Assembly (NCBI GenBank): GCA_903830945.1
Contig: CAIKVT010000021.1
Location: 68,519-103,482 of the forward strand
Direction of reading: 5' to 3'
Length of the DNA: 34,964 nt
From: an uncultured Elusimicrobia bacterium
Lineage (GTDB): Bacteria > Elusimicrobiota > Elusimicrobia > UBA1565 > UBA9628
Position numbers and translations under genes: made by a program
In this document: positions 2,869 to 22,884 of the stretch, piece by piece
Position numbering within the stretch: the stretch's first letter is position 1
Layout: each line of letters starts with the position of its first letter
The notes under the pieces: generated by a model
Seen by the model: the letters and a program-made list of their open reading frames with translations, nothing else
What the model was told of the DNA's origin: nothing
Database searches by the model: none

Positions 2869-4845
2869 ATGGGGAATATACTCATCGCCGCAGGCCTCTT
2901 GGTTCTGGGTGGGGCGGCGGCGCTGTTCTCGGGGAAGAACGCTCGAAGGGCGAACTTTTTTGGCGCCGGCGGCGCGCTTCTGGGCGCCTGCGTCGGGCTC
3001 ATCCCTGCCGTCGCCGCCCTGGCGGGCAGACCAGTCCATCCTCTGCGCTTGGCCTGGGGTCTGCCTATTGGTTCGTTCTCCCTGGCTTTGGACCCGCTCT
3101 CTGCGTTTTTCGTCGTGCCAATTTTGGGACTTTGCGCCTTGGCCGCGCTTTACGGAACCGAGTACCTCCTGCCCTATGCCTCCCGCAAGTCGCTGGGAGT
3201 CCCCTGGTTCTTCTTCGATCTGCTCGCCGCGAGCATGCTCATGGTGGTCGTGGCGCGCGACAGCGTTCTCTTTCTCATCGTCTGGGAGGTCATGGCGCTT
3301 TCTTCCTACTTCCTGGTGACTTTCGAGGATGAGAGAGAAAGCGTCCGGCAGGCCGGCTGGACTTATCTCGTGGCCACGCATCTGGGCACGGCCTTTCTAA
3401 TCCTCTTTTTCATGCTATTGGCCAGGGAGAGCGGCATGACGGACTTATCCGTGGCCCCCGCAATGTCCGCCCGGCTGGCTTCGGCCGCTTTTGTTCTGGC
3501 GCTCATCGGTTTCGGGACCAAGGCGGGATTGATCCCCATGCACGTATGGCTTCCGGAGGCCCATCCGGCCGCCCCCAGTCATGTCTCGGCGGTCATGTCC
3601 GGGGTGATGATCAAGACCGGCATCTACGGGCTCATGCGCGCGTTGACGCTGCTGGGCGCGCCGCCGGCCTGGTGGGGCTGGTCCTTGGTCGGCGTCGGGG
3701 CGGTATCAGGTATCCTGGGCGTACTCTTCGCTTTGGCTCAGCATGACCTCAAGCGCCTTCTGGCTTATCACAGTGTGGAGAATGTCGGCATCATCGCTCT
3801 GGGGCTGGGCGTGGGGATGCTGGGACGGACGCACGGCCTTCCGCTGGTGGCCATGCTCGGTTTCGGCGGCGCTCTGCTGCACGTGCTCAACCATGCGCTC
3901 TTCAAAGGCTTGCTCTTCTTTGGCGCCGGCTCCGTCCTGCACGGGGCCGGGACGCGCGACATGGAGCATCTGGGCGGGCTGCTCAAGCGCATGCCGTGGA
4001 CCGGGACCTGTTTTTTGATCGGATCGGCCGCTATTTGCGGCCTGCCCCCGCTCAACGGTTTCGTCAGCGAATTCCTGATCTATCTGGCCGCGTTTTTGGC
4101 TGTGGTCCAAGGGCAGGCTGCCTGGGGCTCTGTCGTGATCGCGGCTTTGGCGCTCATTGGTGGCCTGGCTCTGGCTTGCTTCACTAAGGCGTTCGGCGTG
4201 GTGTTTTTGGGAGAGCCGCGCGGGAATGATGCCGCGCAGGCGCATGAATGCGGAGCCGCCATGCGTCTGAGCATGGCGGTCTTGGCGGCCGGTTGTCTGT
4301 TCGTCGGCCTTTTGGGGCCAGTCGTGCTGTCCTGGTCTGCCGGGGCCGTGGGTCAGCTGGCAGCTCTGCCGTCGGCGGAGTCCTTCGATTCATGGCAGAT
4401 CGCCATCATGCCGATGTATTCCGTCTCGGCTGGGGCCGCCGTGCTCCTGAGCTTGTTGCTCTTGACTGCGGTTCTGCGCGCCTGGCTGTTGCGCGGCCGC
4501 GAGATAGGACGCAGCCTCACCTGGGACTGCGGCTATGTAGCACCCGGCGCGCGCATGCAGTACTCGGCCTCTTCCTTCGCTCAGCCAATCACCGGATTGT
4601 TCTCTGTGTTCCTACGCACGCGTAAGCGCGCCGCCGGCCCTGAGGGGTATTTTCCCGGGCCCGCGACCTACGCGACCGAGACGCCGGACGTGTTTCGCGA
4701 AGGGCTCTACCGGCCGGTCTTCGAGGGTGCTTTGAAGGCCGCGTTGCGGCTGCGCTGGATCCAGCACGGCCGCATCCAGTTCTATGTCCTCTATATTGCT
4801 CTGACTTTGCTCTTCTTGTTGGTCTGGAGGCTCGGATGCGGCTAA
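2869..4845 (+). CDS. hyfB: Hydrogenase-4 component B-like antiporter subunit (Ehr complex)
   Basis: This is a membrane subunit of the Mrp-antiporter/NuoL-type family, 658 residues and about 15 hydrophobic segments. It is expected to move ions as part of a complex I-like machine. Family landmarks include VWEVMALSSYFLVTF, carrying the conserved membrane Glu, and HVWLPEAHPAAPSHVSAVMS followed by GVMIKTGIYG with the conserved Lys. The C-terminal WDCGYVAPGARMQYSASSFA is characteristic of HyfB/HycC rather than NuoL. The ATG at 2869 lies 2 nt after the regulator stop, with AGAAGG upstream. The gene overlaps hyfC by 10 nt. The family is certain; its placement in an Ehr-type complex and not a hydrogenase comes from the large subunit downstream. 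Confidence 0.92.
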   Translation: MGNILIAAGLLVLGGAAALFSGKNARRANFFGAGGALLGACVGLIPAVAALAGRPVHPLRLAWGLPIGSFSLALDPLSAFFVVPILGLCALAALYGTEYLLPYASRKSLGVPWFFFDLLAASMLMVVVARDSVLFLIVWEVMALSSYFLVTFEDERESVRQAGWTYLVATHLGTAFLILFFMLLARESGMTDLSVAPAMSARLASAAFVLALIGFGTKAGLIPMHVWLPEAHPAAPSHVSAVMSGVMIKTGIYGLMRALTLLGAPPAWWGWSLVGVGAVSGILGVLFALAQHDLKRLLAYHSVENVGIIALGLGVGMLGRTHGLPLVAMLGFGGALLHVLNHALFKGLLFFGAGSVLHGAGTRDMEHLGGLLKRMPWTGTCFLIGSAAICGLPPLNGFVSEFLIYLAAFLAVVQGQAAWGSVVIAALALIGGLALACFTKAFGVVFLGEPRGNDAAQAHECGAAMRLSMAVLAAGCLFVGLLGPVVLSWSAGAVGQLAALPSAESFDSWQIAIMPMYSVSAGAAVLLSLLLLTAVLRAWLLRGREIGRSLTWDCGYVAPGARMQYSASSFAQPITGLFSVFLRTRKRAAGPEGYFPGPATYATETPDVFREGLYRPVFEGALKAALRLRWIQHGRIQFYVLYIALTLLFLLVWRLGCG

Positions 4846-5753
4846 GCGCTTTGCACCTGCCTCTGGCCCTGTTGTGTGCGCCCTTGCTGCCGGGGATAAT
4901 CAACAAGGTCAAGGCCTTTTTCGCTGGGCGTACGGGGCCTAGCGTTTTCCAGCCCTATCTGGATCTGCTCAAGCTCCTGCAGAAAGGCGCGGTGTACAGC
5001 CGTACAACGACCTGGGTGTTCCGCGCCGGGCCTATCGTCGCCTTGGCCTCAACGACGGCGGCTCTTGTGCTCTTGCCTTTGGGCGGCCTGCCCGCGTTGC
5101 TGGCCTTCCCCGGAGATCTCGTGCTCTTCGCCTACGTTCTGGCCTTGGGGCGCTTCTTCACGGTCGCGGCCGCCCTGGACACAGGCTCGGCCTTCGAAGG
5201 GATGGGCGCCAGCCGCGAGGTGTGGTTTGCAGCCCTCTCCGAGCCGGCCTTGCTCTTGGGGCTGGCTGCCATGGCCAAGCAGGCAGGGAAGCTCTCGTTG
5301 ACCAGCCTTTATGCGGCGTTGGGGCCGGCGGTCCTGTTGAAGCCCGGCGGGCCGGCCCTTCTGCTGGTCGCGGCGGCGCTGCTGATCATCTTCCTAGCGG
5401 AGAACTCGCGCATTCCCTTCGATGACCCGAACACGCATCTGGAGCTTACCATGATCCATGAGGTCATGGTCCTCGACCATAGCGGCCCGGAATTCGGCCT
5501 TATCCAATACGCCGCGTCGCTTAAGTTGTGGGCTCTGGGGGCCTTGGCGTCCGGCCTCTTGCTGCCTGTGCGCACGGGAGTGCCTTGGTTGGATCTATTT
5601 GCCGGGTTCTGCGGTCTGTTTGTGGTGGCGATGTTCACCGGTGTGGTGGAGTCCGTGATGGCCCGCCTGCGCCTGACCCGGGTCTCCCAGCTGCTGGCCG
5701 CGGCCGCCGCTTTTTCGGTGCTGGCGCTGATGCTCGTGAGGAGTGCGCCATGA
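4836..5753 (+). CDS. hyfC: Hydrogenase-4 component C / NuoH-like membrane subunit
   Basis: This NuoH/HycD-family subunit (305 residues, about eight membrane segments) links the soluble redox arm to the ion-pumping subunits. It shows PGIINKVKAFFAGRTGPSVFQPYLDLLKLL near its N-terminus; the stretch around FAGRTGPSVFQPY is typical of the family. The acidic loop segment SRIPFDDPNTHLELTMIHEV carries conserved Asp/Glu residues. The start at 4836 has a textbook Shine-Dalgarno (GGAGG at 4826-4830, 5 nt away) and overlaps hyfB, so translation is probably coupled. It overlaps hyfE by 4 nt (ATGA). The length matches HyfC (about 315 residues). Confidence 0.92.
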   Translation: MRLSALHLPLALLCAPLLPGIINKVKAFFAGRTGPSVFQPYLDLLKLLQKGAVYSRTTTWVFRAGPIVALASTTAALVLLPLGGLPALLAFPGDLVLFAYVLALGRFFTVAAALDTGSAFEGMGASREVWFAALSEPALLLGLAAMAKQAGKLSLTSLYAALGPAVLLKPGGPALLLVAAALLIIFLAENSRIPFDDPNTHLELTMIHEVMVLDHSGPEFGLIQYAASLKLWALGALASGLLLPVRTGVPWLDLFAGFCGLFVVAMFTGVVESVMARLRLTRVSQLLAAAAAFSVLALMLVRSAP

Positions 5754-6394
5754 GTTTTTGGGTGGAGATCCTCGTCATCCTGGTGGTCCTTTCCAACCTG
5801 CGAGTGCTGGGCGCCAGCCGGCTTTCCGCCTGCATCCAGACCGTGGCCTTCCAGGGCGCCCTGCTTGGCCTTCTGCCCGTGTTGGCCAATCTTGACGCCC
5901 TGACCGTGCGCCTGCTCCTGCAGGCCGGGTCGAGCACTTTCCTTAAGGCCATGGTGTTCCCGTGGCTGTTGGGCCGGGCTCTGCGCCAAGCCGGCCTGCA
6001 GAGGGAAGTGGAGCCTTTCGTGGGGTTCACCGCCTCGCTGGCGGCAGGGGTCTTGTTCCTGGGTGCGGCGCTATGGCTCGGAGCGCGCTTGCCCCAGGCC
6101 GGGCCCGAGGGACTGGGGCGGCTGGTTCCCACGGCTCTTTTCACCATCTTCGTCGGGCTTTTTGTCATCGTGAGCCGGCGTCAGGCCGTGACCCAGGTCT
6201 TGGGCTACCTGATCCTTGAGAACGGCATCTACGCATTCGGCATGGCCTTCGCCGAGCATCAGCCGCTCCTGGTGGAGTTGGGCATCCTGCTCGACGTGTT
6301 CATGGCGGTCTTCGTGATGGGCATCACTCTTTTCCATATTCACCGGGAGTTCGACCACCTCGACACGGACCGGCTGACGGCTTTGAAACACTGA
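5750..6394 (+). CDS. hyfE: Hydrogenase-4 component E-like membrane subunit (NuoK-like)
   Basis: A small integral membrane protein of 214 residues with six to seven hydrophobic segments, matching HyfE, whose C-terminal part is NuoK-like. Acidic residues buried in late helices are visible (LGYLILENGIYAFGMAFAEH and LVELGILLDVFMAVFVMGI), as expected for ion-conducting subunits. I place the start at the ATG at 5750, which overlaps the hyfC stop as ATGA and has GAGGAG 6 nt upstream. A longer open frame reaches back to 5528 but lies inside hyfC. The gene overlaps hyfF by one base. No hyfD homologue lies between hyfC and hyfE, a simplification common in shorter group 4 relatives. Confidence 0.92.
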   Translation: MSFWVEILVILVVLSNLRVLGASRLSACIQTVAFQGALLGLLPVLANLDALTVRLLLQAGSSTFLKAMVFPWLLGRALRQAGLQREVEPFVGFTASLAAGVLFLGAALWLGARLPQAGPEGLGRLVPTALFTIFVGLFVIVSRRQAVTQVLGYLILENGIYAFGMAFAEHQPLLVELGILLDVFMAVFVMGITLFHIHREFDHLDTDRLTALKH

Positions 6395-7860
6395 TGATCT
6401 GGGCATTGTTGGGTGTACCCACGGCGGCGGGCGCGGCGGCTTTCTTTATCCGGCCGGACGGTCCCCGGCGATTCCTGTTGCTGGCCGCGGCTTTGGCCCA
6501 CGCGGCTCTGACCGCCGCGTGTTGGGGGGCGCTGCCGGGGCCGGTCTTGGGAGGCTACCTTGAGCTTGACGCGGCGGGGCGGCTCTTCTTGAGCCTGACC
6601 AGCGTTCTGTTCTTGGCCACGGCGGCTTACGCGAAGGGTTTTTTAAAGTCGGCGGGCCACTCGAAAGAGGAAGAAGACGCCGAGGGCTTTCTCTTTGACA
6701 ACGCGCCGGAAGCGGTGTTTATCGGCTGCCTGCTTTTATTTTTGGGCACCATGACTTTGGCCGCGCTCAGCCAGCATTTCGGTCTCTTGTGGGTGGGCAT
6801 CGAGGCCACCACCTTGGTCAGCGCGCCGCTCATCCACTTCCATCGGCAGAGGAGCTCTCTCGAGGCCACATGGAAGTACCTGCTCATCTGCTCGGTAGGT
6901 ATCGCCTTGGCCCTTCTGGGAAACTTCTTCTTGGCCGTGGCCGCGCGCCATCACCAAGATCTGCTTATGACCGGCCGGGAATTGGCGGCGCACGCGGCTG
7001 AGCTGGACCAGCCATGGCTTAAGGCGGCATTTTTGCTCTTCTTGGTAGGCTACGGGACTAAGATGGGGCTGGCACCGTTGCACACATGGCTGCCGGACGC
7101 ACACAGCGAAGCGCCCTCCGTGGTTTCGGCTTTGCTCTCCGGAGCCTTGCTTAATTGCGCTTTCCTGGCTTTGATGCGCGTCAACGCAGTGCTCTGCGCC
7201 GCAGGCCTGGCGGATTTCACCGGGGGCCTGCTCATGGGATTCGGGCTGTTATCCATGGCCGTGGCCGCGGCATTCATTATCGGGCAGACGGATTTCAAGC
7301 GCATGCTCGCCTATTCCAGCGTGGAGCATATGGGCGTGCTGGCCTTCGGCGTGGGCTTGGGAGCCGCAGCTCCGGCCGCCATGCTCCATGCGGTCAACCA
7401 CTCTTTGACCAAGGCGCTGTTGTTCTTGACGGCCGGCAACCTTCTGGCCGCCGGACGCACCAAGTCCGTGGGCGAGGTGCGCGGCCTTCTGCGCGCTTTG
7501 CCCTTCTCGGGCTTCTTGTGGTTGATAGGGTTTCTGGCCATCACGGGCTCCCCGCCTTTCGGACCATTCATCAGCGAGTTGTGGATATTGCAGGGCGCGC
7601 TCGGCCGGCACCACGGCGCGCTGGCCGCGCTCTATCTGGCTTTGCTGGCGGTCGTGTTCGTGGGCATGGCCACCATCGTGCTCAAGATGTGTCATGGTGA
7701 GCCCTCGGAGAGATTCAAGGTCGTGCCTGCCGAGGACGACCCCTGGCGGTTGTGGCCTCCGGCCCTGCTGGCAGCGGCCGTTCTGGTCCTGGGGCTTTGG
7801 GTGCCCCGGCCGCTGCTCGACGCCGTCAAGGAAGCGGCGGTCGTGCTGGGGGCGCGCTGA
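6394..7860 (+). CDS. hyfF: Hydrogenase-4 component F-like antiporter subunit
   Basis: This is the second antiporter-type subunit of the complex, 488 residues and about thirteen to fourteen membrane segments. Landmarks are LLWVGIEATTLVSAPLIHFH with the conserved Glu, GLAPLHTWLPDAHSEAPSVV, and KRMLAYSSVEHMGVLAFGVG, which is typical of HyfF/NuoN-like proteins. The start ATG overlaps the hyfE stop (TGATG), and the stop overlaps the next start in the same way, so translation is likely coupled along the operon. Two antiporter-like subunits (HyfB and HyfF) suggest two ion channels besides the NuoH-like one. The family is certain; the ion used (proton or sodium) is not visible. Confidence 0.92.
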   Translation: MIWALLGVPTAAGAAAFFIRPDGPRRFLLLAAALAHAALTAACWGALPGPVLGGYLELDAAGRLFLSLTSVLFLATAAYAKGFLKSAGHSKEEEDAEGFLFDNAPEAVFIGCLLLFLGTMTLAALSQHFGLLWVGIEATTLVSAPLIHFHRQRSSLEATWKYLLICSVGIALALLGNFFLAVAARHHQDLLMTGRELAAHAAELDQPWLKAAFLLFLVGYGTKMGLAPLHTWLPDAHSEAPSVVSALLSGALLNCAFLALMRVNAVLCAAGLADFTGGLLMGFGLLSMAVAAAFIIGQTDFKRMLAYSSVEHMGVLAFGVGLGAAAPAAMLHAVNHSLTKALLFLTAGNLLAAGRTKSVGEVRGLLRALPFSGFLWLIGFLAITGSPPFGPFISELWILQGALGRHHGALAALYLALLAVVFVGMATIVLKMCHGEPSERFKVVPAEDDPWRLWPPALLAAAVLVLGLWVPRPLLDAVKEAAVVLGAR

Positions 7861-9338
7861 TGGCTCAGGGATTGGTCCTGCGCAATGGCCAAGCGGCCCC
7901 GCTTTCCAAGGTTCCGATCCTGGCCGCGGCGGAGTTCCGCCACGCCGTCCTGGAGGCCGTGGGCGCGGGCTCGCGCTTAAGCGCTTTCTTCGGCCGCAGG
8001 CTGGCCTCTGGTGGGTTCGGTCTGCTGGCTGTTCTGGCCGATGATACCGAAGGCGTACTGTCTTTGCTGGGCGCGCAGCCAACGGAAAGCTATCACGCGC
8101 TGACTCCGGACTGCCCTCAGGCCCACCTTTTTGAACGAGAGATCTTCGAGCAGTGCGCGGTCATCCCATCGGGGCATCCCTGGCTGAAGCCGGTGCGCTT
8201 CCCGCCGCCGAGCAGCGCGGCTTGCGGGACCATGGATTTCTACCGGGTGGAGGGGGAAGAGGTTCATGAGGTGGCGGTGGGGCCGGTGCACGCGGGGGTC
8301 ATCGAGCCCGGACATTTCCGCTTTCAATGCCACGGGGAGGTGGTCCAGCACCTGGAGATCTCCTTAGGCTATCAGCATCGCGGCGTGGAGCGCGCGCTGT
8401 CGGGCGGGCCGAACCGGCTCAGCGTGCATCTGGCTGAAACACTCGCCGGAGACACAACCGTGGGCCACGGATGGGCCTACTGTCAAGCGGTGGAGGCCTT
8501 GGGTAGGGCCGAGGCGCCGCCGCGGGCTTTGGCATTGCGCGCCGTGGCGTTGGAGCTGGAGCGCGTCGCCAACCATATCGGCGATCTGGGGGCCCTTGCC
8601 GGAGACGTTGGGTTTTTGCCCACGCAATCCTATTGCGGCCGTTTGCGCGGCGACGCGCTCAATATCACGGCCATGCTCTGCGGCAGCCGTTTCGGGCGCA
8701 ATCTCCTGCGGCCGGGCGGGGTGGCGCATGACGTAGACGCTCAGCTGGTGGAAGAGATGTCGGCGCGCCTGGAGACGCTCGGGCGGGAGGCGGCCTCGGC
8801 TGTGAACCTGCTTTGGGACTCTCCTTCCGTGACCGGGCGCTTCGAGGAGACCGGGATGGTCTCCCTGGAGGATTGCCGTCGGCTCGGCTTGGTTGGACCT
8901 GCAGCGCGGGCCTGCGGGCTCAATTTGGACGTGCGCCGGGATCTGCCATTCGGCATCTATCGCTACGCCATGATCCCGGTCTCCAGCTGGCACGCGGGCG
9001 ACGTGTTTGGCCGAGCCCAGGTCCGCTGGCTGGAGGTCCAGCGCTCGCTGCAGTTCGTTCGCGAGCTTCTGGGGTCTTTGCCTGGCGGGTTCTTGCGCCG
9101 AGAAGTTCCCAAGCTGCGAACTGAGCATGTGGCGGTCTCATTGACCGAGGGTTGGCGCGGCGAGATATGCCATGTGGCCGTGACCGACGCTGAAGGACGG
9201 TTCTCCGCGTATAAGGTCGTGGATCCCTCGTTTCATAACTGGTTCGGACTCGCTCTGGCTTTGCGCGGCCAGCAGATCTCTGACTTCCCCTTGTGTAACA
9301 AGAGTTTTGACCTTTCATACTGTGGTTTCGACCTGTGA
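7860..9338 (+). CDS. Ehr large subunit: NuoCD/HyfG-like protein lacking NiFe ligands
   Basis: This 492-residue protein has an N-terminal NuoC-like part (about 1-140) and a NuoD/hydrogenase-large-subunit part (about 150-492, starting near HFRFQCHGEVVQHLEISLGY). In true group 4 hydrogenases two CxxC pairs bind Ni and Fe. At the first site this protein reads ETLAGDTTVGHGWAYCQAVE, where the CGxC is gone and only Cys208 remains. At the C-terminus it reads FPLCNKSFDLSYCGFDL, so no DPCxxC; Cys479 and Cys488 are nine residues apart. This is the state described for energy-converting hydrogenase-related (Ehr) complexes and for NuoD. It therefore should not make H2; the true substrate is unknown. The start at 7860 overlaps the hyfF stop (TGATG) with GGGGG upstream. 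A longer frame back to 7752 lies inside hyfF. Confidence 0.9.
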   Translation: MAQGLVLRNGQAAPLSKVPILAAAEFRHAVLEAVGAGSRLSAFFGRRLASGGFGLLAVLADDTEGVLSLLGAQPTESYHALTPDCPQAHLFEREIFEQCAVIPSGHPWLKPVRFPPPSSAACGTMDFYRVEGEEVHEVAVGPVHAGVIEPGHFRFQCHGEVVQHLEISLGYQHRGVERALSGGPNRLSVHLAETLAGDTTVGHGWAYCQAVEALGRAEAPPRALALRAVALELERVANHIGDLGALAGDVGFLPTQSYCGRLRGDALNITAMLCGSRFGRNLLRPGGVAHDVDAQLVEEMSARLETLGREAASAVNLLWDSPSVTGRFEETGMVSLEDCRRLGLVGPAARACGLNLDVRRDLPFGIYRYAMIPVSSWHAGDVFGRAQVRWLEVQRSLQFVRELLGSLPGGFLRREVPKLRTEHVAVSLTEGWRGEICHVAVTDAEGRFSAYKVVDPSFHNWFGLALALRGQQISDFPLCNKSFDLSYCGFDL

Positions 9339-9342
9339 CCTT

Positions 9343-10092
9343 ATGTTGAAAGTGCTTTGGACGAGATTTAAACAGGGGCACCGGACCATGGAGTATCCCG
9401 CTGGTCCGGCGCCGGAACTGCCCCGGCGTTTTTTGGGCCGACCAAAGCTTGATGCCTCCCTCTGCATGGTAGGCTGCCCTGGTTGTTCCTCGGTCTGCCC
9501 TACAGGGGCGCTCGGCGGGGGGAAGCTGGATCTGGGGAAATGCATTTTCTGTGGAGCCTGCGCGGCCGCGTGCCCTGAGCAAGCGGTGGAGTTCACGCGT
9601 GAATATCGGATGGCCGCCAGAAGACGCGAGGACTTGGTGGCCCAGGGCGACGGTTATCGGCTGGCTGAGGCTTTGGAAGCGAAGTCCCGCCAGCTCTTCG
9701 GCCGCAGTCTCAAGCTCCGTCAGGTGAGCGCGGGGGGGTGCAACGCCTGCGAGGCCGACGTCAACGTGCTCAACACCATCGGTTGGGATTTGGGTCGCTT
9801 CGGCGTGCAGTTCGTGGCCTCGCCCCGGCACGCTGACGGCCTTCTAGTTACAGGCCCGGTGTCTGAGAACATGCGTCCGGCCTTGCTCAAGACCTGGGAG
9901 GCGGTGCCTTCACCTAAGCTGGTCATCGCGGTCGGCTCCTGCGCCATCGCGGGCGGGCCGTACCGCGGCCATCCCGAGGCCCATGACGGCTGCGGCAAGT
10001 TCCTGCCGGTGGATCTTTTTATTCCGGGGTGCCCGCCGCATCCCTTGACCACCCTCGACGGGATCCTGCGCCTGCTGGGACGGATCGGATGA
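9343..10092 (+). CDS. Fused dicluster ferredoxin / NuoB-like small subunit (HyfH-HyfI fusion)
   Basis: This is the electron-transfer subunit of the complex, 249 residues. The N-terminus (MLKVLWTRFKQGHRTMEYP) resembles NuoI/HycF proteins. Two [4Fe-4S] motifs follow: Cys41-45-48-52, with a 3-residue first gap, and Cys67-70-73-77. The C-terminal half is NuoB/HycG-like and keeps four ligands for the proximal cluster (Cys133, Cys136, Cys200, Cys230), so electrons can still reach the large subunit. I chose ATG 9343, 4 nt after the previous stop, because the NuoI-like N-terminus begins there; a TTG at 9307 and an ATG at 9388 are alternatives. It is the last gene of the operon. No dehydrogenase module is encoded here, so the electron partner is probably a soluble ferredoxin. 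Confidence 0.9.
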   Translation: MLKVLWTRFKQGHRTMEYPAGPAPELPRRFLGRPKLDASLCMVGCPGCSSVCPTGALGGGKLDLGKCIFCGACAAACPEQAVEFTREYRMAARRREDLVAQGDGYRLAEALEAKSRQLFGRSLKLRQVSAGGCNACEADVNVLNTIGWDLGRFGVQFVASPRHADGLLVTGPVSENMRPALLKTWEAVPSPKLVIAVGSCAIAGGPYRGHPEAHDGCGKFLPVDLFIPGCPPHPLTTLDGILRLLGRIG

Positions 10093-10105: not shown

Positions 10106-11890
10106 TCAGCGGCCCACGATGCGTCTGGAGCTCTGGAGCATGCCGCGCGCGGCCCTCTGAAACTTCTGCAGCCAGCGGCGGGGAGCCTGGCGCATCTGCT
10201 CCGCTTCAGGGAAACCGTGGGCCTGGGCGTACCAGTAGGTCAGGAGGCAGCCTAGAGGCATGGTCGCCAGGAATATGATCGTGCCCCCGGGCACGTGGAT
10301 GAGGTCGGCCAGCCGCAAAGTCCAATTGATCATGTAGAATAATTGATTGATCGCGCCGGAGCGTGAAACACCTCCAAGCAGCGGCGCGGTGAACTGCCTG
10401 TGCTGATCGCCGATCCTGGGGATCTGCGTCCAGATGGACTTGCCTACGTTGTTGAGCGCTACGTTGCTGAACACATGGATATGCATGGCCGCCGAACACA
10501 GCGCTGATAATCCCAGGGTGCTGGCGACTACGGGATAGGCGAAAATGATGCTGATCAAGGCCTGCTTCAGAAATTGCCGCGACCAAGGCCCGCGATAAGT
10601 CCAATTCTTGTACGTGCTGATGAACCCTCCGATGAGCGCCCCGAAAGTGAAAGTGTAAAATACGGGCGTTAAGCTCAGGGCCGCCCCGGCGGATAGGAAG
10701 CCCAGCCCCAGTGCCAATAGTCCCTGCACAGCTCCCATGAGCAGTCCGAACCAGATGTCGGTGCTGGCAGGTTTCTTGTAGGTGGCGTACCAGAAGGCTT
10801 TCCACCAGGCGAGACTCAGGCGAGCCGGCCTCTCATGGAATTCCTTGGCCACGATGACGCCATCCCGCTCCCAGGCGATGACCACATTTCGTCCCGTCTT
10901 GCCGTCCTTGCGATGCGCGCCGGCGTCCATGACTTGACGGCTCAGGATCTGCCGCAGATGCGGGGAATCTTTCGGCACCGCCGCTTGGTCCAAGAAATAG
11001 ATCGCTAACTCGGTCGGAGCGTGCGTCACGCGAATGAACCAAATTCTTTCGCCGCTTACTCGGAGCGAGTTGACCTCACCGCGGCCCAATAGTGGATCTT
11101 CCAAGACGATCCCACCTTTGTCAATCTCTCTCTCAAAACGATCCGAACCCCATTCGGCCAGATCCCTGCGCGCTAAGGCATCCACGCGTGTCCGAAGCAT
11201 TTGCGCCTCTGCCAGGATAGCGGCTTGATCCGCCGTCCAGGCCCGTCGGCTGTCTCTTGGGACGTCAGGGAGGATAGGTGACGGAAGCGGGGTTGCTTGT
11301 CTTGCCCGTGTGCCCTGGTCGGACGCCTTGGCGGCCGAGAGCCACCCGCCTGTATGAGTCTGCTGATCCGTGAGAAAGGCGGCGGCATCATCCTCCAGGC
11401 CGGCCGTGATTCGAGGGATTTCGAAGAACTGGGCGGCAAAGTCTTTGGACTTTTCAGCCGGACCCATTTTGGGGATCGCGATGAGCTGTGAGGAGAGGCT
11501 TTGGTACTGGGTCCGACGCTCCGTGGAGAGGACCGGAGCCATTGTCGCCTCAGGGGCTGAGGGGGAGACGGCTTCCGGGATCTTAGGTGCCTGGAGAGCG
11601 GCGGCGGGGGCGGATAAGCTGACGGAGATCGGCATCGGAGCGATGGAGATGGCTGGGGAGGCGGAGACGGGGCGATCGGATATGAGGCTGGGAGTCTGCA
11701 AGGCCCCCGCCAGAAGGCTGGCTGTCGGAGTGATGACCGCGCCTGCGTAGCTCAGACCGGGGGCCGAGGTTGCGCCGCCATTGGGGACCATCGTGCCGCG
11801 GCTGACGGCAGCGGCCGCGGCAGGGGCCGCGGCGAGGAATGCCGAAAGGATGAGCCCAGCGCGGCGCTGTGCAATCTGGAGGTCCATCAT
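10106..11890 (-). CDS. Exported/membrane orphan protein, Ala/Pro-rich N-terminus
   Basis: I do not recognise a family. The 594-residue protein starts with a signal peptide (MMDLQIAQRRAGLILSAFLA, then AAAPAAAAAVS). A low-complexity Ala/Pro/Ser region to about residue 125 and a mixed soluble region of about 240 residues follow, the latter ending near WWKAFWYATYKK. The C-terminal third has about four to five hydrophobic segments (for example FGLLMGAVQGLLALGLGFLS and LKQALISIIFAYPVVASTLG), and the tail is basic. I chose the ATG at 11890 and not 11965, because TACAAT lies exactly 6 nt upstream as in other genes here and the signal peptide starts there. A similar N-terminal design occurs in the protein at 12440-14926. 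It converges with the Ehr operon. Probably an envelope protein; function unknown. Confidence 0.75.
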   Translation of the reverse strand: MMDLQIAQRRAGLILSAFLAAAPAAAAAVSRGTMVPNGGATSAPGLSYAGAVITPTASLLAGALQTPSLISDRPVSASPAISIAPMPISVSLSAPAAALQAPKIPEAVSPSAPEATMAPVLSTERRTQYQSLSSQLIAIPKMGPAEKSKDFAAQFFEIPRITAGLEDDAAAFLTDQQTHTGGWLSAAKASDQGTRARQATPLPSPILPDVPRDSRRAWTADQAAILAEAQMLRTRVDALARRDLAEWGSDRFEREIDKGGIVLEDPLLGRGEVNSLRVSGERIWFIRVTHAPTELAIYFLDQAAVPKDSPHLRQILSRQVMDAGAHRKDGKTGRNVVIAWERDGVIVAKEFHERPARLSLAWWKAFWYATYKKPASTDIWFGLLMGAVQGLLALGLGFLSAGAALSLTPVFYTFTFGALIGGFISTYKNWTYRGPWSRQFLKQALISIIFAYPVVASTLGLSALCSAAMHIHVFSNVALNNVGKSIWTQIPRIGDQHRQFTAPLLGGVSRSGAINQLFYMINWTLRLADLIHVPGGTIIFLATMPLGCLLTYWYAQAHGFPEAEQMRQAPRRWLQKFQRAARGMLQSSRRIVGR

Positions 11891-11896
11891 AATATG

Positions 11897-11902
11897 ATTG
11901 TA
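11897..11902 (-). promoter_or_regulatory. -10 element, leaderless start of the 10106-11890 gene
   Basis: On the minus strand TACAAT is followed by exactly 6 nt and then the ATG at 11890. There is no Shine-Dalgarno sequence. It matches the fixed spacing seen at six other genes of the window. Confidence 0.55.
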
Positions 11903-12015
11903 AACGGATAATCGTCTTGGAGCCACGGTCCAAGGACCCAGCACGCGTTTCCCTTTTGGACCCACGGCTAACTCTCGTAAGTCAAACCTATGGTCAAAGA
12001 TCGCGGCAACTTTGT

Positions 12016-12439: not shown

Positions 12440-14926
12440 TTAATCATGCCCGTCAGATTCGCGCAGGAGCCGGTCTAGCGCCGCGGAGTAGCCCGAGTCC
12501 GTGGTGGCGCCTGAATGAAAGCCGACTTTGGCGCGGGTCTTGTCCGCCCGGGAGTCCAGGTGCTGCCGGATGGCCTCGGTGACAAGGTCCTCATCCGGGG
12601 TCAGCGAGCCCGCTCCGGAGAGCTGCACCAAATGCTGCAGGCTCGCGGTCAGTCCCGGGTCCATCCCCACATAGGCGGGCATGGTGAGGGGTGCGGCGAG
12701 CTTGCCTGCTTCACCGAACGATGGGTAGTCGACGGAGGCGTAGCTCTCGATCTTCGGGTCGATGAATATGGCGCTGGGCCAGATGATGCGCTCCTTGGGA
12801 TTGATGATCTCGGTGCCCGGCATCCCCAGTTTCTTGAGCAGCAGGATGAGGGGGTTCCAATGGTCGGGCCTGTCTTGTATCTCGAATTCCGCGCCCATGT
12901 GGTACGCGAGCATGACCGTGGAGCTGCAGTAGCCGCGCCACATCTCGTTGACGAAGTCGTAGGCGAAGCCCATTCCGAAGCGCCAGAGCATTTCCTCGAT
13001 TGTCGTGGCCGCGCGGCGGGCGACTTCGGCCGCGAGCTTGCCGGCCTCACGGCGCGGGATTGCCAAAAGCGCCGCATAGTCCGCTCGGCTGATGTTCGGA
13101 GTCCAGAGGTCTTTGCCTGAGCGGTAAATCGCGTTCTGATATCCCGCGGACTGGTGCTGAGCGTGGAAGTCGTCCCAGACGCGCTGGGCGTTGTAATGTC
13201 CCGCGCCGAACCTCATGAACTCTCCGGGCAGGGCGAAATTCTCGGCGATGCCGATTTTACGGATGCCTCCCTCCTCGGCGTTGGGATAGTTGTCCATGGC
13301 CCAGACCATGGACAGTCCGTCTGATTCTTCCACCACGGCCATGCCTAAATGGGAGTAGCCGTGCTGCAGGATGGGCTGCTTGGAGAGCCAAGCCTTGAAG
13401 GCCCGCAGGATCTGCTTGAGGCGGTTGCGCACCGGCTGTCCCGGGATCATGACCGGCTCCTTCTTCGGCTCGGCCCATAGGCCCAGCAAAGGGCCGAGCA
13501 GTTTCGCCCGATAAGCCTTGAGCCACAGTTTTGGCTGGGGCCTCACGGAGAATCCGATCTCCGAGGCTTCCCTGCCGGCGCTGCGCTCGCCGATGAAATC
13601 TCCAGTATGGAGTTTGATGCGTACCGGCCGGGAGGAGTCGCGGTCGGGCAGGATCACGGTGTCGCCTATGAAGTTTTCGAGATGCAGCCCGCGTCGGGCC
13701 AGCTTTTCCCGGAGTTCTTTGGCGATCTCCGGCCGGCCCGAATTCCTGGAAAATCTGACCAACGAGGCGGCCAGTGCGCGGCCCGCATAGCGAGTCTGGC
13801 CGATCGTGGCATCGGTATAGCTGACGACCAGGCCAGTTTCCGCCAGGGCCTTGAGGCGCTCTAGGCGGGCGGTCAAGTCGAGCGCCGCAGGGGCGCCTTT
13901 GTTTCCTTGGTCGAGCGCCGCAAGGCCCGCGCTGCGGAGCTGCGGCGGGACGGCGGCTTTGGCGACATCAGAAACCACCTGTATGAGCTGGCCGGAAAGT
14001 TTTTGGATCGTGACCGCGATGAGCCAGTCGCGGATGGCATCCTGATTCCCGCTGGCCACCTCGGCCGGCAGGCTCGATGGGGGATCTAAAGGCTGGAGGC
14101 TCAAGAGGCGTGCGGCCAGTTCGGTTGCGATGCTCATGGCCTCGGCGCTGTAGCCTTGTTCCGAGAGACCGGCCATGATTTCAGCGGCAAGATCCCGGGC
14201 CGCGGGGATGGTGCGGTAGCGCCGCGCGTTGAGCTGTAGGACCTTCTTTTGAAGATCGGTCAGGCCGCTTTGCTCTAAAGTGCCCGCGATGGCTGCCGGA
14301 TAGTCCCGGAATCCCAGGTCTGCAAGGAAGAGGGTGTAGTCTTTTCGGACTTCATCCGGCCTCTGCGCCATTCTTGCGAAAAGCCGCGCCGCAGGAGAAA
14401 TGAGGCTGGGGGCCAGGTCCGGAGCTTCCATCCCTGCGACCGGAGCGGCCGAGGTCGGATCCGTGGAATGGTCATAGAAATGGGGCAGGATCGATTCGAG
14501 ACGGTCGGCTGCGTCAGCCTTACGCAGGATTTCGGCGGCTTGCAGGCCCGACCCCGCTCCAGGGATTGCGATGACTCCGTCGGTCGGCGAGGCGTCAAGT
14601 CCGGCGGGGCCGCCGTGCTGGATGCCTTCAGGAATGGCGATAGCGGCTGGCGCGATGGCGGATGCCGCGGCAGCGGGGAAAACGGACATGACCGACGGAG
14701 GAGATGTCGGGATGGGTGCCGGCTGGGATGGTGACGGAGTCTTGATGGAAACGATTCCATTCAGGCTTAAACGATCAGAGAGAGTCCTGGAGTCTTGGCG
14801 CGGCAGGCTTAGATCGACGCCAGGATGAGTCAGGTTGAGACGCGGTATGACTTTGCTTGGGCCGGAAACATTCGCGGCCTGGGCTGCCAGCGACGCAAAA
14901 ATAATTGGAAAAATGATTCGGACCAT
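12440..14926 (-). CDS. Large secreted protein with C-terminal YiiX-like (permuted NlpC/P60) domain
   Basis: An 828-residue protein with a signal peptide (MVRIIFPIIFASLAAQAANV), then an Ala/Pro-rich linker to about residue 130 and a long helical region of about 300 residues. The C-terminal part shows, in order, HTGDFIGERS (about residue 442), YSHLGMAVVEE with His526, and GYCSSTVMLAYH with Cys667. A GD-F segment, then His in S/G-H-x-G, then a late Cys is the order found in circularly permuted papain-like enzymes (YiiX/LRAT type), so I infer a cysteine hydrolase or acyltransferase acting outside the cytoplasm on peptidoglycan, peptides or lipids. No other family is recognisable. The ATG at 14926 is supported by TAAAAT 6 nt upstream. 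The gap between His and Cys is longer than in YiiX, so this assignment is tentative. Confidence 0.75.
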   Translation of the reverse strand: MVRIIFPIIFASLAAQAANVSGPSKVIPRLNLTHPGVDLSLPRQDSRTLSDRLSLNGIVSIKTPSPSQPAPIPTSPPSVMSVFPAAAASAIAPAAIAIPEGIQHGGPAGLDASPTDGVIAIPGAGSGLQAAEILRKADAADRLESILPHFYDHSTDPTSAAPVAGMEAPDLAPSLISPAARLFARMAQRPDEVRKDYTLFLADLGFRDYPAAIAGTLEQSGLTDLQKKVLQLNARRYRTIPAARDLAAEIMAGLSEQGYSAEAMSIATELAARLLSLQPLDPPSSLPAEVASGNQDAIRDWLIAVTIQKLSGQLIQVVSDVAKAAVPPQLRSAGLAALDQGNKGAPAALDLTARLERLKALAETGLVVSYTDATIGQTRYAGRALAASLVRFSRNSGRPEIAKELREKLARRGLHLENFIGDTVILPDRDSSRPVRIKLHTGDFIGERSAGREASEIGFSVRPQPKLWLKAYRAKLLGPLLGLWAEPKKEPVMIPGQPVRNRLKQILRAFKAWLSKQPILQHGYSHLGMAVVEESDGLSMVWAMDNYPNAEEGGIRKIGIAENFALPGEFMRFGAGHYNAQRVWDDFHAQHQSAGYQNAIYRSGKDLWTPNISRADYAALLAIPRREAGKLAAEVARRAATTIEEMLWRFGMGFAYDFVNEMWRGYCSSTVMLAYHMGAEFEIQDRPDHWNPLILLLKKLGMPGTEIINPKERIIWPSAIFIDPKIESYASVDYPSFGEAGKLAAPLTMPAYVGMDPGLTASLQHLVQLSGAGSLTPDEDLVTEAIRQHLDSRADKTRAKVGFHSGATTDSGYSAALDRLLRESDGHD

Positions 14927-19442: not shown

Positions 19443-19448
19443 TATAAT
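19443..19448 (+). promoter_or_regulatory. -10 element of the TldD/TldE-like operon
   Basis: TATATAATTG contains a perfect TATAAT that ends 20 nt before the ATG at 19469. The predicted leader of about 13-14 nt contains GGGGAA, a usable Shine-Dalgarno sequence. It lies in the 63-bp divergent region with sixA. Confidence 0.6.
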
Positions 19449-19468
19449 TGCCGCTTGTGGGGAACCCA

Positions 19469-21166
19469 ATGAAGACACGTCACGGCGTCTCCGTTTTCGC
19501 AGCGGCTTGTTTTCTGTGTCCGCAGACGGCCCGCTGCGTCCCCGATCCCGTGCTCGCCGCAATGCAGGAGGAACTCTCCCGGTCCTTCTCCCAGTTGGGC
19601 CGCTCCGATACCGCGCCGCTCTATTACCTTGATTACGAGGTGACGGATTCGACGGGTCTGTGGCTCGGGGCGAGTCTGGGGGCTCTGGAGGCGGATGTGC
19701 AGAATTCGAGCCGCCACCTAGATACGGATGTCCGCGTCGGCTCTCCGCAACTCGACAACACACATGAGATCAAGGGCCGGGACTCTTGGATGGACAGTTC
19801 GCAGCGCGCCAAGGTGCGCATCCCGATCGAGGGTGACGTCCCCGCTCTGCGCGCCGCGATGTGGCAGCAGACGGACGCCGGTTTCAAGTCCGCCTTGGAG
19901 CGCTACACCAAGGTCAAGACCAATCGGGCCGTGACCGCGGCGGAGGAGGACCGTTCCCCGGATTTCTCCCAGGAAGGCGTCCCGGCCCGGCATTCCGACG
20001 TCGTAGAGTACCCCCAGATCGACCAGAAGCTCTGGGCGAGCAGGGTCAAGGTGTATTCGGCCCGGTTCAAAGACCTTCCCTTCGTCTTCGACTCCGGCGC
20101 GGGGATGGAGGTCAACCTCGTCGACCGGCGCTTCGTCTCCAGCGAAGGCGCCGCGTTGCGCACGGGGAACCTCTACATTCGTCTTTCCTACCGGCTGAGC
20201 AGCCGCACCATGGACGGCATGGACCTCTACCGCTTCAAGGGCTACGACGTGGACCGTCTCTCGGATTTGCCTTCGGACGAGACCATCCGGCGTGACATGG
20301 GCCAGTCCATCGCTGAACTCAAGGCCCTGCGGGACGCGCCGCTCATAGAGCCTTACGCGGGCCCGGTCATCCTGAAGAACCGCGCTGCCGCAGTTTTTTT
20401 TCACGAGATCTTCGGGCACCGGGTCGAGGGGCAGCGCCAGAAGAAGGAGAGTGAAGGTCAGACCTTCACTAAGAAGCTCGGCCAGCCCGTGGTCTCGAGT
20501 TTTATCTCGGTCTACGACGACCCGACGCTGGAGCGTTTCCGGGGGACCTTCCTGCGCGGCGCCTACCGCTACGACGACGAAGGCATCCCGGCACAGCGGG
20601 TGGCTTTGGTCGAGGGCGGCATTCTGCGCAATTTCCTTATGAACCGTATGCCTATCAGGGGATTCCCCAGATCCAACGGCCACGGTCGCCGCGAGCCGGG
20701 CCACGCCACCGTGGCGCGGATGGGCAGCATCATCGTGGAGGCCTCCCAGGCCGTGCCCTATGCGCAGCTGCGGCGGATGTTGGTCGAGGAGTTGGCCCGT
20801 CAGAAGAAGTCTTACGGCCTGGTCTTCGACGATATTTCCGGCGGCTACACTATGACTGGCCGGGGATCGGCGCAGGCATTCAAGGTGCAGCCGTTGTTGG
20901 TCTATAAAGTCTACGCGGACGGACGCCCCGACGAGGTGGTGCGGGGCGTGGATATCGTGGGTACGCCGATCGCTGGTTTCATGAAGATCCTGGCCGCGGG
21001 CGACGATCCGGCCGTGTTCAACGGGACCTGCGGGGCGGAGTCGGGCGGGGTGCCGGTCTCGGCGGTGTCTCCCAGCCTGCTCATCTCCGAGATGGAGGTC
21101 GAGAAGGTGGCCAAATCGCAATCCAAGCCGCCCATCCTGCCGCCGCCCTATGGGGACAAGCCATGA
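19469..21166 (+). CDS. Exported TldD-family metalloprotease, zinc site intact
   Basis: A 565-residue member of the TldD/PmbA (U62) family. The N-terminus MKTRHGVSVFAAACFLCPQT looks like a signal peptide, whereas E. coli TldD is cytoplasmic and about 481 residues long. The zinc motif HExxxH is intact (HEIFGH, His312, Glu313, His317). Cys521 in GTCGAESGG sits where TldD has its third ligand. Other landmarks are YDDEGIPAQRVALVEGGIL and NGHGRREPGHA. TldD works as a heterodimer with a zinc-less partner to cleave unfolded peptides, and the next gene looks like that partner. I chose ATG 19469 because GGGGAA precedes it and the signal peptide follows; TTG 19448 is an alternative. The family is certain; export is inferred. 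Confidence 0.88.
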   Translation: MKTRHGVSVFAAACFLCPQTARCVPDPVLAAMQEELSRSFSQLGRSDTAPLYYLDYEVTDSTGLWLGASLGALEADVQNSSRHLDTDVRVGSPQLDNTHEIKGRDSWMDSSQRAKVRIPIEGDVPALRAAMWQQTDAGFKSALERYTKVKTNRAVTAAEEDRSPDFSQEGVPARHSDVVEYPQIDQKLWASRVKVYSARFKDLPFVFDSGAGMEVNLVDRRFVSSEGAALRTGNLYIRLSYRLSSRTMDGMDLYRFKGYDVDRLSDLPSDETIRRDMGQSIAELKALRDAPLIEPYAGPVILKNRAAAVFFHEIFGHRVEGQRQKKESEGQTFTKKLGQPVVSSFISVYDDPTLERFRGTFLRGAYRYDDEGIPAQRVALVEGGILRNFLMNRMPIRGFPRSNGHGRREPGHATVARMGSIIVEASQAVPYAQLRRMLVEELARQKKSYGLVFDDISGGYTMTGRGSAQAFKVQPLLVYKVYADGRPDEVVRGVDIVGTPIAGFMKILAAGDDPAVFNGTCGAESGGVPVSAVSPSLLISEMEVEKVAKSQSKPPILPPPYGDKP

Positions 21167-21180
21167 GGGGGGAGAATGTC

Positions 21181-22884
21181 ATGCGCCGGTTCCGTTGGGG
21201 GATGATCGCCGTTTATGCGCTCTGGCTGGGCTCGGCGTTCCCGGCGCGAGCCGCTCTGCCCTCCGACGACGTCGTCTTCAGGTCAATGAGGGACGAGATG
21301 GGCCGGAATATGCGTCGGTTGCGCATGGACGACCTGCCTGGGCCGTATTACCTGGCCTACACGGTCAGGGAAGGGACGCAAGCCTTCATCACCGCGAGTT
21401 TCGGCGCGTTGGAGGGCAGCCAGGCCAGTCCTTTCCTTGAAGCGCGGGTGCAGGTGCGGGTGGGAGATGATTCCTTTGACAACACGAATTTCGTCCCGGC
21501 CGGCTTCGGCTCAGGCGGCCCGGGTCTGGGTAGCGCTTCTTTTGAGGACGATTACGACAATCTGCGCTTCTCCCTGTGGTCCCTGACCGACGATACATAC
21601 AAGAACGCCCTGGAGGCCTTCGCCAAGAAAAAGGCCTTCCGGGAGAGGCACCGGATCATGGAATCGCCCGGAGATTTCTCCCGTGAACAGCCTGTGGAGC
21701 GGTATGAGCCGTCGGCCTGGGTGCCGATTGACCGCGGGTTATGGGAGCGGCGCGTGCGGGAGCTTTCCGCGGTCTTCCGTGATTACCCGGACATCCAGGA
21801 CTCGCGCGTGGAGTTGAGCTTTGTGAGCGGAACCAGGAGGTTTATCAGCAGCGAAGGCTCCGTCGTTCGCGGCTCGGACGCGCAAATCAGCATCGGGGTC
21901 ACCGCTAACACGCAGGGTAAAGATGGCCTGCGCTTCGGCGACTCGGAGGGACTGCATTATCCGTCTTGGGCCGACGTCCCGGCGCAGGGGGCCCTGCTCG
22001 CCGAGGTGCGCCGCTTCGCACGGGGAGTGGTGGATGTGGTGCACGGCTCGACCGTGGAGGCTTATGTGGGGCCGGTGATCTTTGAAGGCGAGGCCGCGGC
22101 GGAGTTCTTCGACGTGCAGCTGGTGGATAACATTTCCAATCCGCGCGGCAGCTGGGACGAGGATGAGAATAGTCATGTCTTCGATCCGCCGCCTTTCGTC
22201 AGCCGGCTGGGCATGCGTGTGGCCGTGCCCTGGCTGAGCTTCGTTGACGACCCGCTCCTGGAACGCTATGACGGCGTGCCGCTCTTCGGCCATTACATGA
22301 TCGACGATGAGGGTGTGCCGGCCCAGCGCCTGGAACTGGTGCGCAAGGGCAAGCTCGTCGGCCTCTACATGAGCCGCGCTCCTATCCGCGAGTTCAAGCA
22401 TTCCAACGGGCATGGACGTTCCGCTTTCGTCGGTGAGCCGTCAGGCCGGATGGGCAATCTCATTGTGACTCCAGAAAAGCCCGTGCCGCTCTCCGAGCTC
22501 AAGGACCGGATGCGCGCGATGTGCCGGGAGCTGGAACTCGATTACGGCATCGTGGTGCGCGAGATGGGAGGCTTGACTCCGGTCCGGGCCTATAAGGTGT
22601 ACGCGGCTGACGGCCGCGAGGAGCCGCTGGCAGGGGTGGAGTTCGTGGGCGCGGGGTTCCGGCCTTTGCGCGACATCGTGGCCGCCTCAAAGGAAAGGTA
22701 CGTGTTCAACTTCCTGCACGGCTCCAACGGCCGCACCGTGGTGCCGGCCTCGATCGTGGCGCCGGCGATCCTGGTCCAGGAGATGGAGCTGCGCAAGACC
22801 GAGCGCAAGCCGGAGCGCATGCCCTACCTCGAGCACCCTTACTTCGTGGAGAAGGGGAGGGACCAGCGCATCCCCGTGCGCTAG
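21181..22884 (+). CDS. Exported TldD/PmbA-family paralogue lacking the zinc ligands
   Basis: A 567-residue paralogue of the preceding protein, with a signal peptide (MRRFRWGMIAVYALWLGSAF, then PARAALP). The shared framework is visible: RFISSEGSVVRGSDAQISIG, IDDEGVPAQRLELVRKGKLV and HSNGHGRSAFVGEP. Where the active paralogue has HEIFGH this one reads FFDVQLVD, and the C-terminal Cys is replaced (FLHGSNGRTVVPAS). All three zinc ligands are therefore missing. That is the relation of TldE (PmbA) to TldD, so I infer a secreted TldD/TldE-like heterodimer. The ATG at 21181 has a strong Shine-Dalgarno (GGGGGGAG); an ATG at 21163 overlapping the upstream stop as ATGA is possible. The stop overlaps the convergent phospholipase stop within CTAG. 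Confidence 0.86.
   Translation: MRRFRWGMIAVYALWLGSAFPARAALPSDDVVFRSMRDEMGRNMRRLRMDDLPGPYYLAYTVREGTQAFITASFGALEGSQASPFLEARVQVRVGDDSFDNTNFVPAGFGSGGPGLGSASFEDDYDNLRFSLWSLTDDTYKNALEAFAKKKAFRERHRIMESPGDFSREQPVERYEPSAWVPIDRGLWERRVRELSAVFRDYPDIQDSRVELSFVSGTRRFISSEGSVVRGSDAQISIGVTANTQGKDGLRFGDSEGLHYPSWADVPAQGALLAEVRRFARGVVDVVHGSTVEAYVGPVIFEGEAAAEFFDVQLVDNISNPRGSWDEDENSHVFDPPPFVSRLGMRVAVPWLSFVDDPLLERYDGVPLFGHYMIDDEGVPAQRLELVRKGKLVGLYMSRAPIREFKHSNGHGRSAFVGEPSGRMGNLIVTPEKPVPLSELKDRMRAMCRELELDYGIVVREMGGLTPVRAYKVYAADGREEPLAGVEFVGAGFRPLRDIVAASKERYVFNFLHGSNGRTVVPASIVAPAILVQEMELRKTERKPERMPYLEHPYFVEKGRDQRIPVR

Follow-up and report, generated by a model that had tools for sequence, protein, structure and literature searches.

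An operon of an uncultured Elusimicrobia bacterium predicted to encode an Ehr complex whose former NiFe site looks rebuilt

The window analysed here, a stretch of 34,964 nucleotides from an uncultured Elusimicrobia bacterium (contig CAIKVT010000021.1, positions 68,519 to 103,482), carries an operon which, judged by its predicted gene products, is a full Ehr (Ech-hydrogenase-related) complex composed of HyfB-, HyfC-, HyfE-, HyfF- and HyfG-like subunits and a fused ferredoxin/small subunit. The four cysteines that bind NiFe in hydrogenases of this type are all replaced in its large subunit. The former NiFe site looks rebuilt rather than decayed, and the complex very likely still performs some other electron-transfer reaction. 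Ehr is the established name for relatives of group 4 hydrogenases without NiFe, and the available portions of the Ehr literature assign them no function; they are known from Geobacter sulfurreducens (GSU0739-0745), comammox Nitrospira, CPR and AOA. The window operon has the same group-4-like set of HyfB/C/E/F/G and small subunit, likewise without the NiFe cysteines, and shows no difference from known Ehr that would exclude its membership. It is an addition to the Ehr complexes already known.

All genes of the operon lie on the forward strand. The first (2190-2867) encodes a PtsN-like regulator with HTH_17 (PF12728) and PTS EIIA-2 (PF00359) domains. It is followed by genes for a HyfB-like antiporter subunit of 658 aa (2869-4845; NF005086, 632.8 bits against a cut-off of 667), a HyfC/NuoH-like membrane anchor of 305 aa (4836-5753; Pfam NADHdh, with HycD 7z0s_D and MbhM 6cfw_M as best PDB matches), a HyfE/NuoK-like membrane subunit of 214 aa (5750-6394; NF008556, PF00420) and a HyfF-like antiporter subunit of 488 aa (6394-7860; NF005044). 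Next is the large subunit (G), EhrL (7860-9338; PF00346, 132 bits), in which a NuoC-like N-terminal domain is joined to a NuoD/HycE-like domain, and finally a fused protein with a HyfH-like ferredoxin domain for two [4Fe-4S] clusters and a HyfI/NuoB-like small subunit (Fer4, PF01058). The latter occupies the open frame 9307-10092, within which its real start may fall. Antiporter-like, NuoH-like, HyfE-like, large and small subunits, the set by which Ehr is recognised, are thus found in one operon, and no NuoEFG (the NADH-oxidising module) was found in the window by Pfam. Elsewhere in the window there are two ORFs of 619 and 828 aa on the reverse strand (10106-11965 and 12440-14926) without a Pfam match, and two TldD/PmbA-type metallopeptidase-like genes side by side (19448-22884).

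The translation of EhrL gives 492 aa with no internal stops. Its best solved relative by sequence is E. coli HycE (7z0s_E, 1e-39), and this is also the best PDB fold for the AF2 model (pLDDT 87.4; TM 0.88 normalised by query length). The initial annotation had read AGDTTVGH in place of the first CGxC, Cys208 as the only cysteine left nearby, and Cys479 and Cys488 as lying nine apart, all of which proved exact in the translation. Aligned to HycE, HyfG and MbhL, the former N-terminal CGxC is now A196-G197-D198-T199 (8445-8456), and the former C-terminal CxxC is S486-Y487-C488-G489 (9315-9326), so that A196, T199, S486 and G489 stand where HycE and HyfG have the four cysteines. The alignment revealed no CxxC pair hidden elsewhere in the protein. 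Group 4 NiFe hydrogenases need both pairs, while EhrL has a cysteine at none of the four positions, in agreement with the reading of an Ehr complex lacking the NiFe ligands. It had also been expected that a simple homology annotation would call this protein a hydrogenase. This is not necessarily so, as NuoD is the nearest family in both NCBIfam and Pfam and most equivalog cut-offs are not reached (190.8 bits against a cut-off of 360 for NF004739 in the case of EhrL), and HydDB leaves out Ehr on purpose (PMC5037454).

Across many phyla, 111 homologues taken from independent assemblies show these replacements too, and with these alignments an assembly error or a concealed CxxC could be rejected as an explanation. 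None of the four cysteines is kept in 98 of these homologues and one in the other 13, always at position 196, which is A in 85, C in 13 and S in 13. Position 199 is mostly T or S, and S486 and G489 are found throughout. The protein ends in DL or DR in every homologue, with no C-terminal extension. HycE and HyfG, the closest solved fold, share with Ehr the proximal CxxC and the Glu and His proton relays and differ in having NiFe and an extension past the CxxC. E149 and H203, invariant in all 111, align to Glu21 and His75 of MbhL, both of which lie in proton pathways (PMC11228991). D198 and D249 are likewise present in 111 of 111, D249 aligning to Asp139 of Nqo4 and Asp121 of MbhL, and W432 occupies the place of the canopy Pro in 106 of 111. 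The MbhL residues aligned to positions 198 and 432 (Ile70 and Pro319) are included in a published model of the first and second spheres around the NiFe site. Since the AF2 model is poor in the pocket loops (residues 139-154 and 488-492, pLDDT < 50), the pocket described here is derived from alignment.

A search with HycE of 50 Ehr genomes, together with the genome of the window itself, yielded three Ehr-like loci in which all four NiFe cysteines are present (L147, L151 and L152, with larger regions L176-L178, from Acidobacteria, Deltaproteobacteria and Lentisphaerae). These share with Ehr the HyfB-C-E-F-G-HI order, the fused ferredoxin/small subunit, the IIEPGHFRF and NKSF motifs and the absence of a C-terminal extension. 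They differ in two motifs, CG[AV]C close to the N-terminus and a terminal NKSFELCY[AS]CTDR, and in lacking D198, D249 and W432; at positions 198, 249, 486 and 489 they have A/V, G, C and C, respectively. Residues N480, K481, I148 and Y487 are common to both groups, and N480 and K481 were on this account rejected as Ehr-specific active-site residues. It is because a set of residues is invariant in Ehr yet absent from the NiFe-bearing sister that the site appears to have been rebuilt rather than left to decay.

In a tree of 51 rows the NiFe-bearing trio groups with Ehr with 100% SH-aLRT support. EhrL of the window falls within the large cysteine-less clade, outside the NiFe hydrogenases, and clusters with proteins of Geobacter argillaceus, Pelobacter and other cysteine-less homologues (the G. 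sulfurreducens EhrL not being part of this tree); its nearest NiFe relatives form the separate small sister. A first quick tree had placed the trio inside Ehr, which would imply two losses or a regain. This placement was not upheld: a tree constrained to one Ehr clade, a clade defined after a tree had been seen, has a log-likelihood 23.9 above that of the free quick tree and a p-AU of 0.854. As the tree with Ehr together is more likely and not rejected, the simplest reading is that Ehr probably lost the NiFe site a single time, long ago, from a hydrogen-making ancestor, of which the three loci are possible living relatives. A search for the exact pattern gave no further NiFe-bearing sister among 341 genomes of the window's phylum.

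The claim that the ion-pumping subunits and an electron path had been kept was borne out by the alignments. In the fused subunit the ligands of the proximal cluster (C145 and C148 of a CxxC, C212 and C242) and the eight ferredoxin cysteines are conserved, the ligands of all three [4Fe-4S] clusters being found in about 95-100% of 102 homologues. With MbhJ and HycG, its closest PDB matches, the fused subunit aligns gap-free at the proximal CxxC, which does not align to the tandem CC of NuoB. Residues of ion translocation are retained in HyfB (E140, K218, K295, H338, H342, K346 and E401, in 119-122 of about 122 homologues), HyfC (E136, D196, H201, E203, H208 and E209, invariant in 104), HyfE (E157, E176 and D182, in 102-104 of 104) and HyfF (E137, K223, K302 and K340, in 105-108 of 108). 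Residues 196-215 of HyfC (encoded within 4836-5753) form the loop THLELTMIHEVMVLDHSG, in which H201 and H208 are invariant; this loop, which links the redox site to the pump, is about 3 residues longer than in HycD.

The lack of nickel maturation genes had also been raised in support of a NiFe-free complex. No Pfam match in the window indeed points to such genes; however, the genome (99.3% complete) has, at other places, a HypD gene as well as two large subunits of the NiFe type with CGxC motifs, and the local lack is therefore no evidence and was rejected as an argument. HypD is missing from 16 of 50 other Ehr genomes, including that of the isolate Geothrix paludis (G093); these genomes are mostly drafts whose completeness was not given, so that single absences are weak and the pattern alone counts. 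This pattern indicates that Ehr needs no NiFe. In N. moscoviensis, H2 did not raise the expression of Ehr, a finding cited in PMC12342949.

Some match was obtained in 56 of 57 searched relatives, with a close homologue in 31 genomes, and a scan of genome contigs yielded at least 568 related stretches. The best 80 of these come from Planctomycetota, Verrucomicrobiota, Geobacter and other delta groups, Acidobacteriota, Elusimicrobia, Omnitrophota, Spirochaetota, Chloroflexota and others, and the homologues of Geobacter argillaceus and Geomonas align with the window Ehr from end to end. Gene order is kept wherever it could be read, and many relatives have an additional HyfB upstream of the regulator. 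Two adjacent Ehr operons, one of them divergent, were seen in some genomes (L040, L044 and L112/L180), the second copy of L112/L180 ending in DR. The HTH-PtsN-like regulator is found near 65 of 108 EhrL loci in many phyla, and its putative phospho-histidine H133, which resembles a phospho-acceptor, is kept in 65 of 67; its presence suggests control of the operon by a PTS-type phosphorelay. An ArsR-type regulator occurs near about 19 Ehr loci. Clustering of the examined flanks of about 108 loci gave no conserved catalytic partner gene, the recurring genes being regulators, unspecific sensor genes and, in one lineage, a PEPCK-like gene, so that these flanks give no hint of the acceptor.

We consider it an even chance that Ehr is an ion-pumping oxidoreductase which passes electrons from a ferredoxin-type donor to a small acceptor held in the rebuilt pocket. 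For this mechanism we infer that a low-potential carrier, most likely ferredoxin, would feed electrons into the fused ferredoxin domain, from where they would cross the two [4Fe-4S] clusters to the hydrogenase-type four-cysteine proximal cluster. A small acceptor would then be reduced in a metal-free pocket at the former NiFe position, lined by A/S/C196, D198, T/S199, S486 and G489 and surrounded by E149, H203, R433 and W432, with protons delivered by the retained Glu and His relays. Movements of the loops would reach the antiporter-like HyfB and HyfF by way of HyfC and HyfE and drive the transport of H+ or Na+, and the complex may also operate in reverse. Another metal or cofactor may occupy the pocket. 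A broader proposal, offered tentatively, is that Ehr forms an enzyme class of its own within the complex I superfamily, derived by one ancient conversion and characterised by a metal-free or differently metallated site (for which D198, E149, H203 and D249 are the proposed residues), a small non-quinone acceptor and ion pumping, and often controlled by the HTH-PtsN sensor, which would link it to the phosphorelay or nitrogen status.

The acceptor could instead be menaquinone or another quinone, reached through the NuoH-like chamber and bound by head-group ligands unlike those of complex I, making Ehr a ferredoxin:quinone oxidoreductase. Ehr shares with complex I the homology of fold and subunits (NuoB/C/D/H/I), the lack of NiFe cysteines and the Asp at Nqo4 position 139, which we take to pair with His38 there; it has a CxxC where complex I has the tandem CC, and Pfam found no NuoEFG in its operon. 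The alignment of D249 to this Asp favours a quinone, as do the detection of a menaquinone pathway in 32 of 50 Ehr genomes (futalosine-pathway genes in 27, and MenD over the cut-off in 5 of the other 23) and the two antiporter-like subunits, which by inference suggest a larger energy drop than that of H2 evolution. Against this, the quinone ligands His38 and Tyr87 of Nqo4 are I148 and G197 in all 111 Ehr homologues, and the remaining 18 genomes have neither menaquinone route; in 6 of them (G065, G074, G075, G077, G089 and G097) the HycE search found the Ehr large subunit only, and G077 and G089 are also without any UbiA, with the caveat that these are draft genomes and that quinones of unknown or imported origin are possible. 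In the genome of the window itself there are two NuoD carrying the quinone ligands (C25, C81), although neither futalosine genes nor a MenD over the cut-off were detected, which means that pathway detection can miss quinones. On balance a quinone acceptor appears unlikely.

It has also been proposed for Riflemargulisbacteria and Saganbacteria that Ehr works with formate dehydrogenase as FDH-Ehr (PMC6349859), and in G. sulfurreducens the Ehr (GSU0739-45) is more abundant on formate (PMC7894505). Ehr would then be a formate-linked respiratory module, supplied with electrons by a separate formate dehydrogenase that oxidises formate. No such enzyme is present in the window by Pfam, just as the initial annotation had stated, nor did a conserved partner emerge from the flanks of about 108 loci, and the proposal concerns the donor only and leaves the acceptor aside; as an account of Ehr it is rated quite unlikely.

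A further precedent is MBS, the sulfane sulfur reductase of P. furiosus, a pumping relative of Mbh which, like Ehr, has lost the NiFe ligands and which has gained another acceptor (PMC7684303). If Ehr worked in the same manner, polysulfide would be reduced by the proximal [4Fe-4S] cluster itself. MBS, however, relies on a proximal motif three residues shorter, with three cysteine ligands and one non-cysteine Fe, lacks the Glu21 of MbhL and has two remaining cysteines (PMC7684303), whereas Ehr has the full-length four-cysteine CxxC, aligning gap-free to MbhJ, and retains the Glu, making this mode of action improbable. The idea that Ehr is a functionless hydrogenase, already dead or in decay, as suggested by the Ehr of G. 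sulfurreducens KN400, termed nonfunctional and under relaxed selection (PMC13194489), is scarcely credible given new residues that are invariant in 111 sequences, dN/dS values that, in comparison with L031 as the nearest relative, lie at 0.07-0.16 for the six subunits (and at 0.22 for the regulator), six-subunit operons unbroken across many phyla and the induction of the Ehr protein on formate. The dN/dS values and the conserved ligands and pumping residues contradict the claim of nonfunctionality, at least for this lineage, and it is the uniform rebuilding of the site that makes continued electron transfer by Ehr very likely.

The NiFe-bearing sister and the HTH-PtsN regulator find no mention for known Ehr in the accessible parts of that literature, and, within a literature search that was not exhaustive, the sister, the set of residues linked to the loss and the connection with the regulator appear to be undescribed. 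Ehr is widespread, occurring in bacteria as different as Geobacter and comammox Nitrospira. A sister that shares its operon layout and still has the NiFe ligands, together with a short list of changed residues, would permit a testable before/after comparison. The HypD-less isolate Geothrix paludis offers a clean NiFe-free background. The results also speak against the published view of Ehr as simply nonfunctional.
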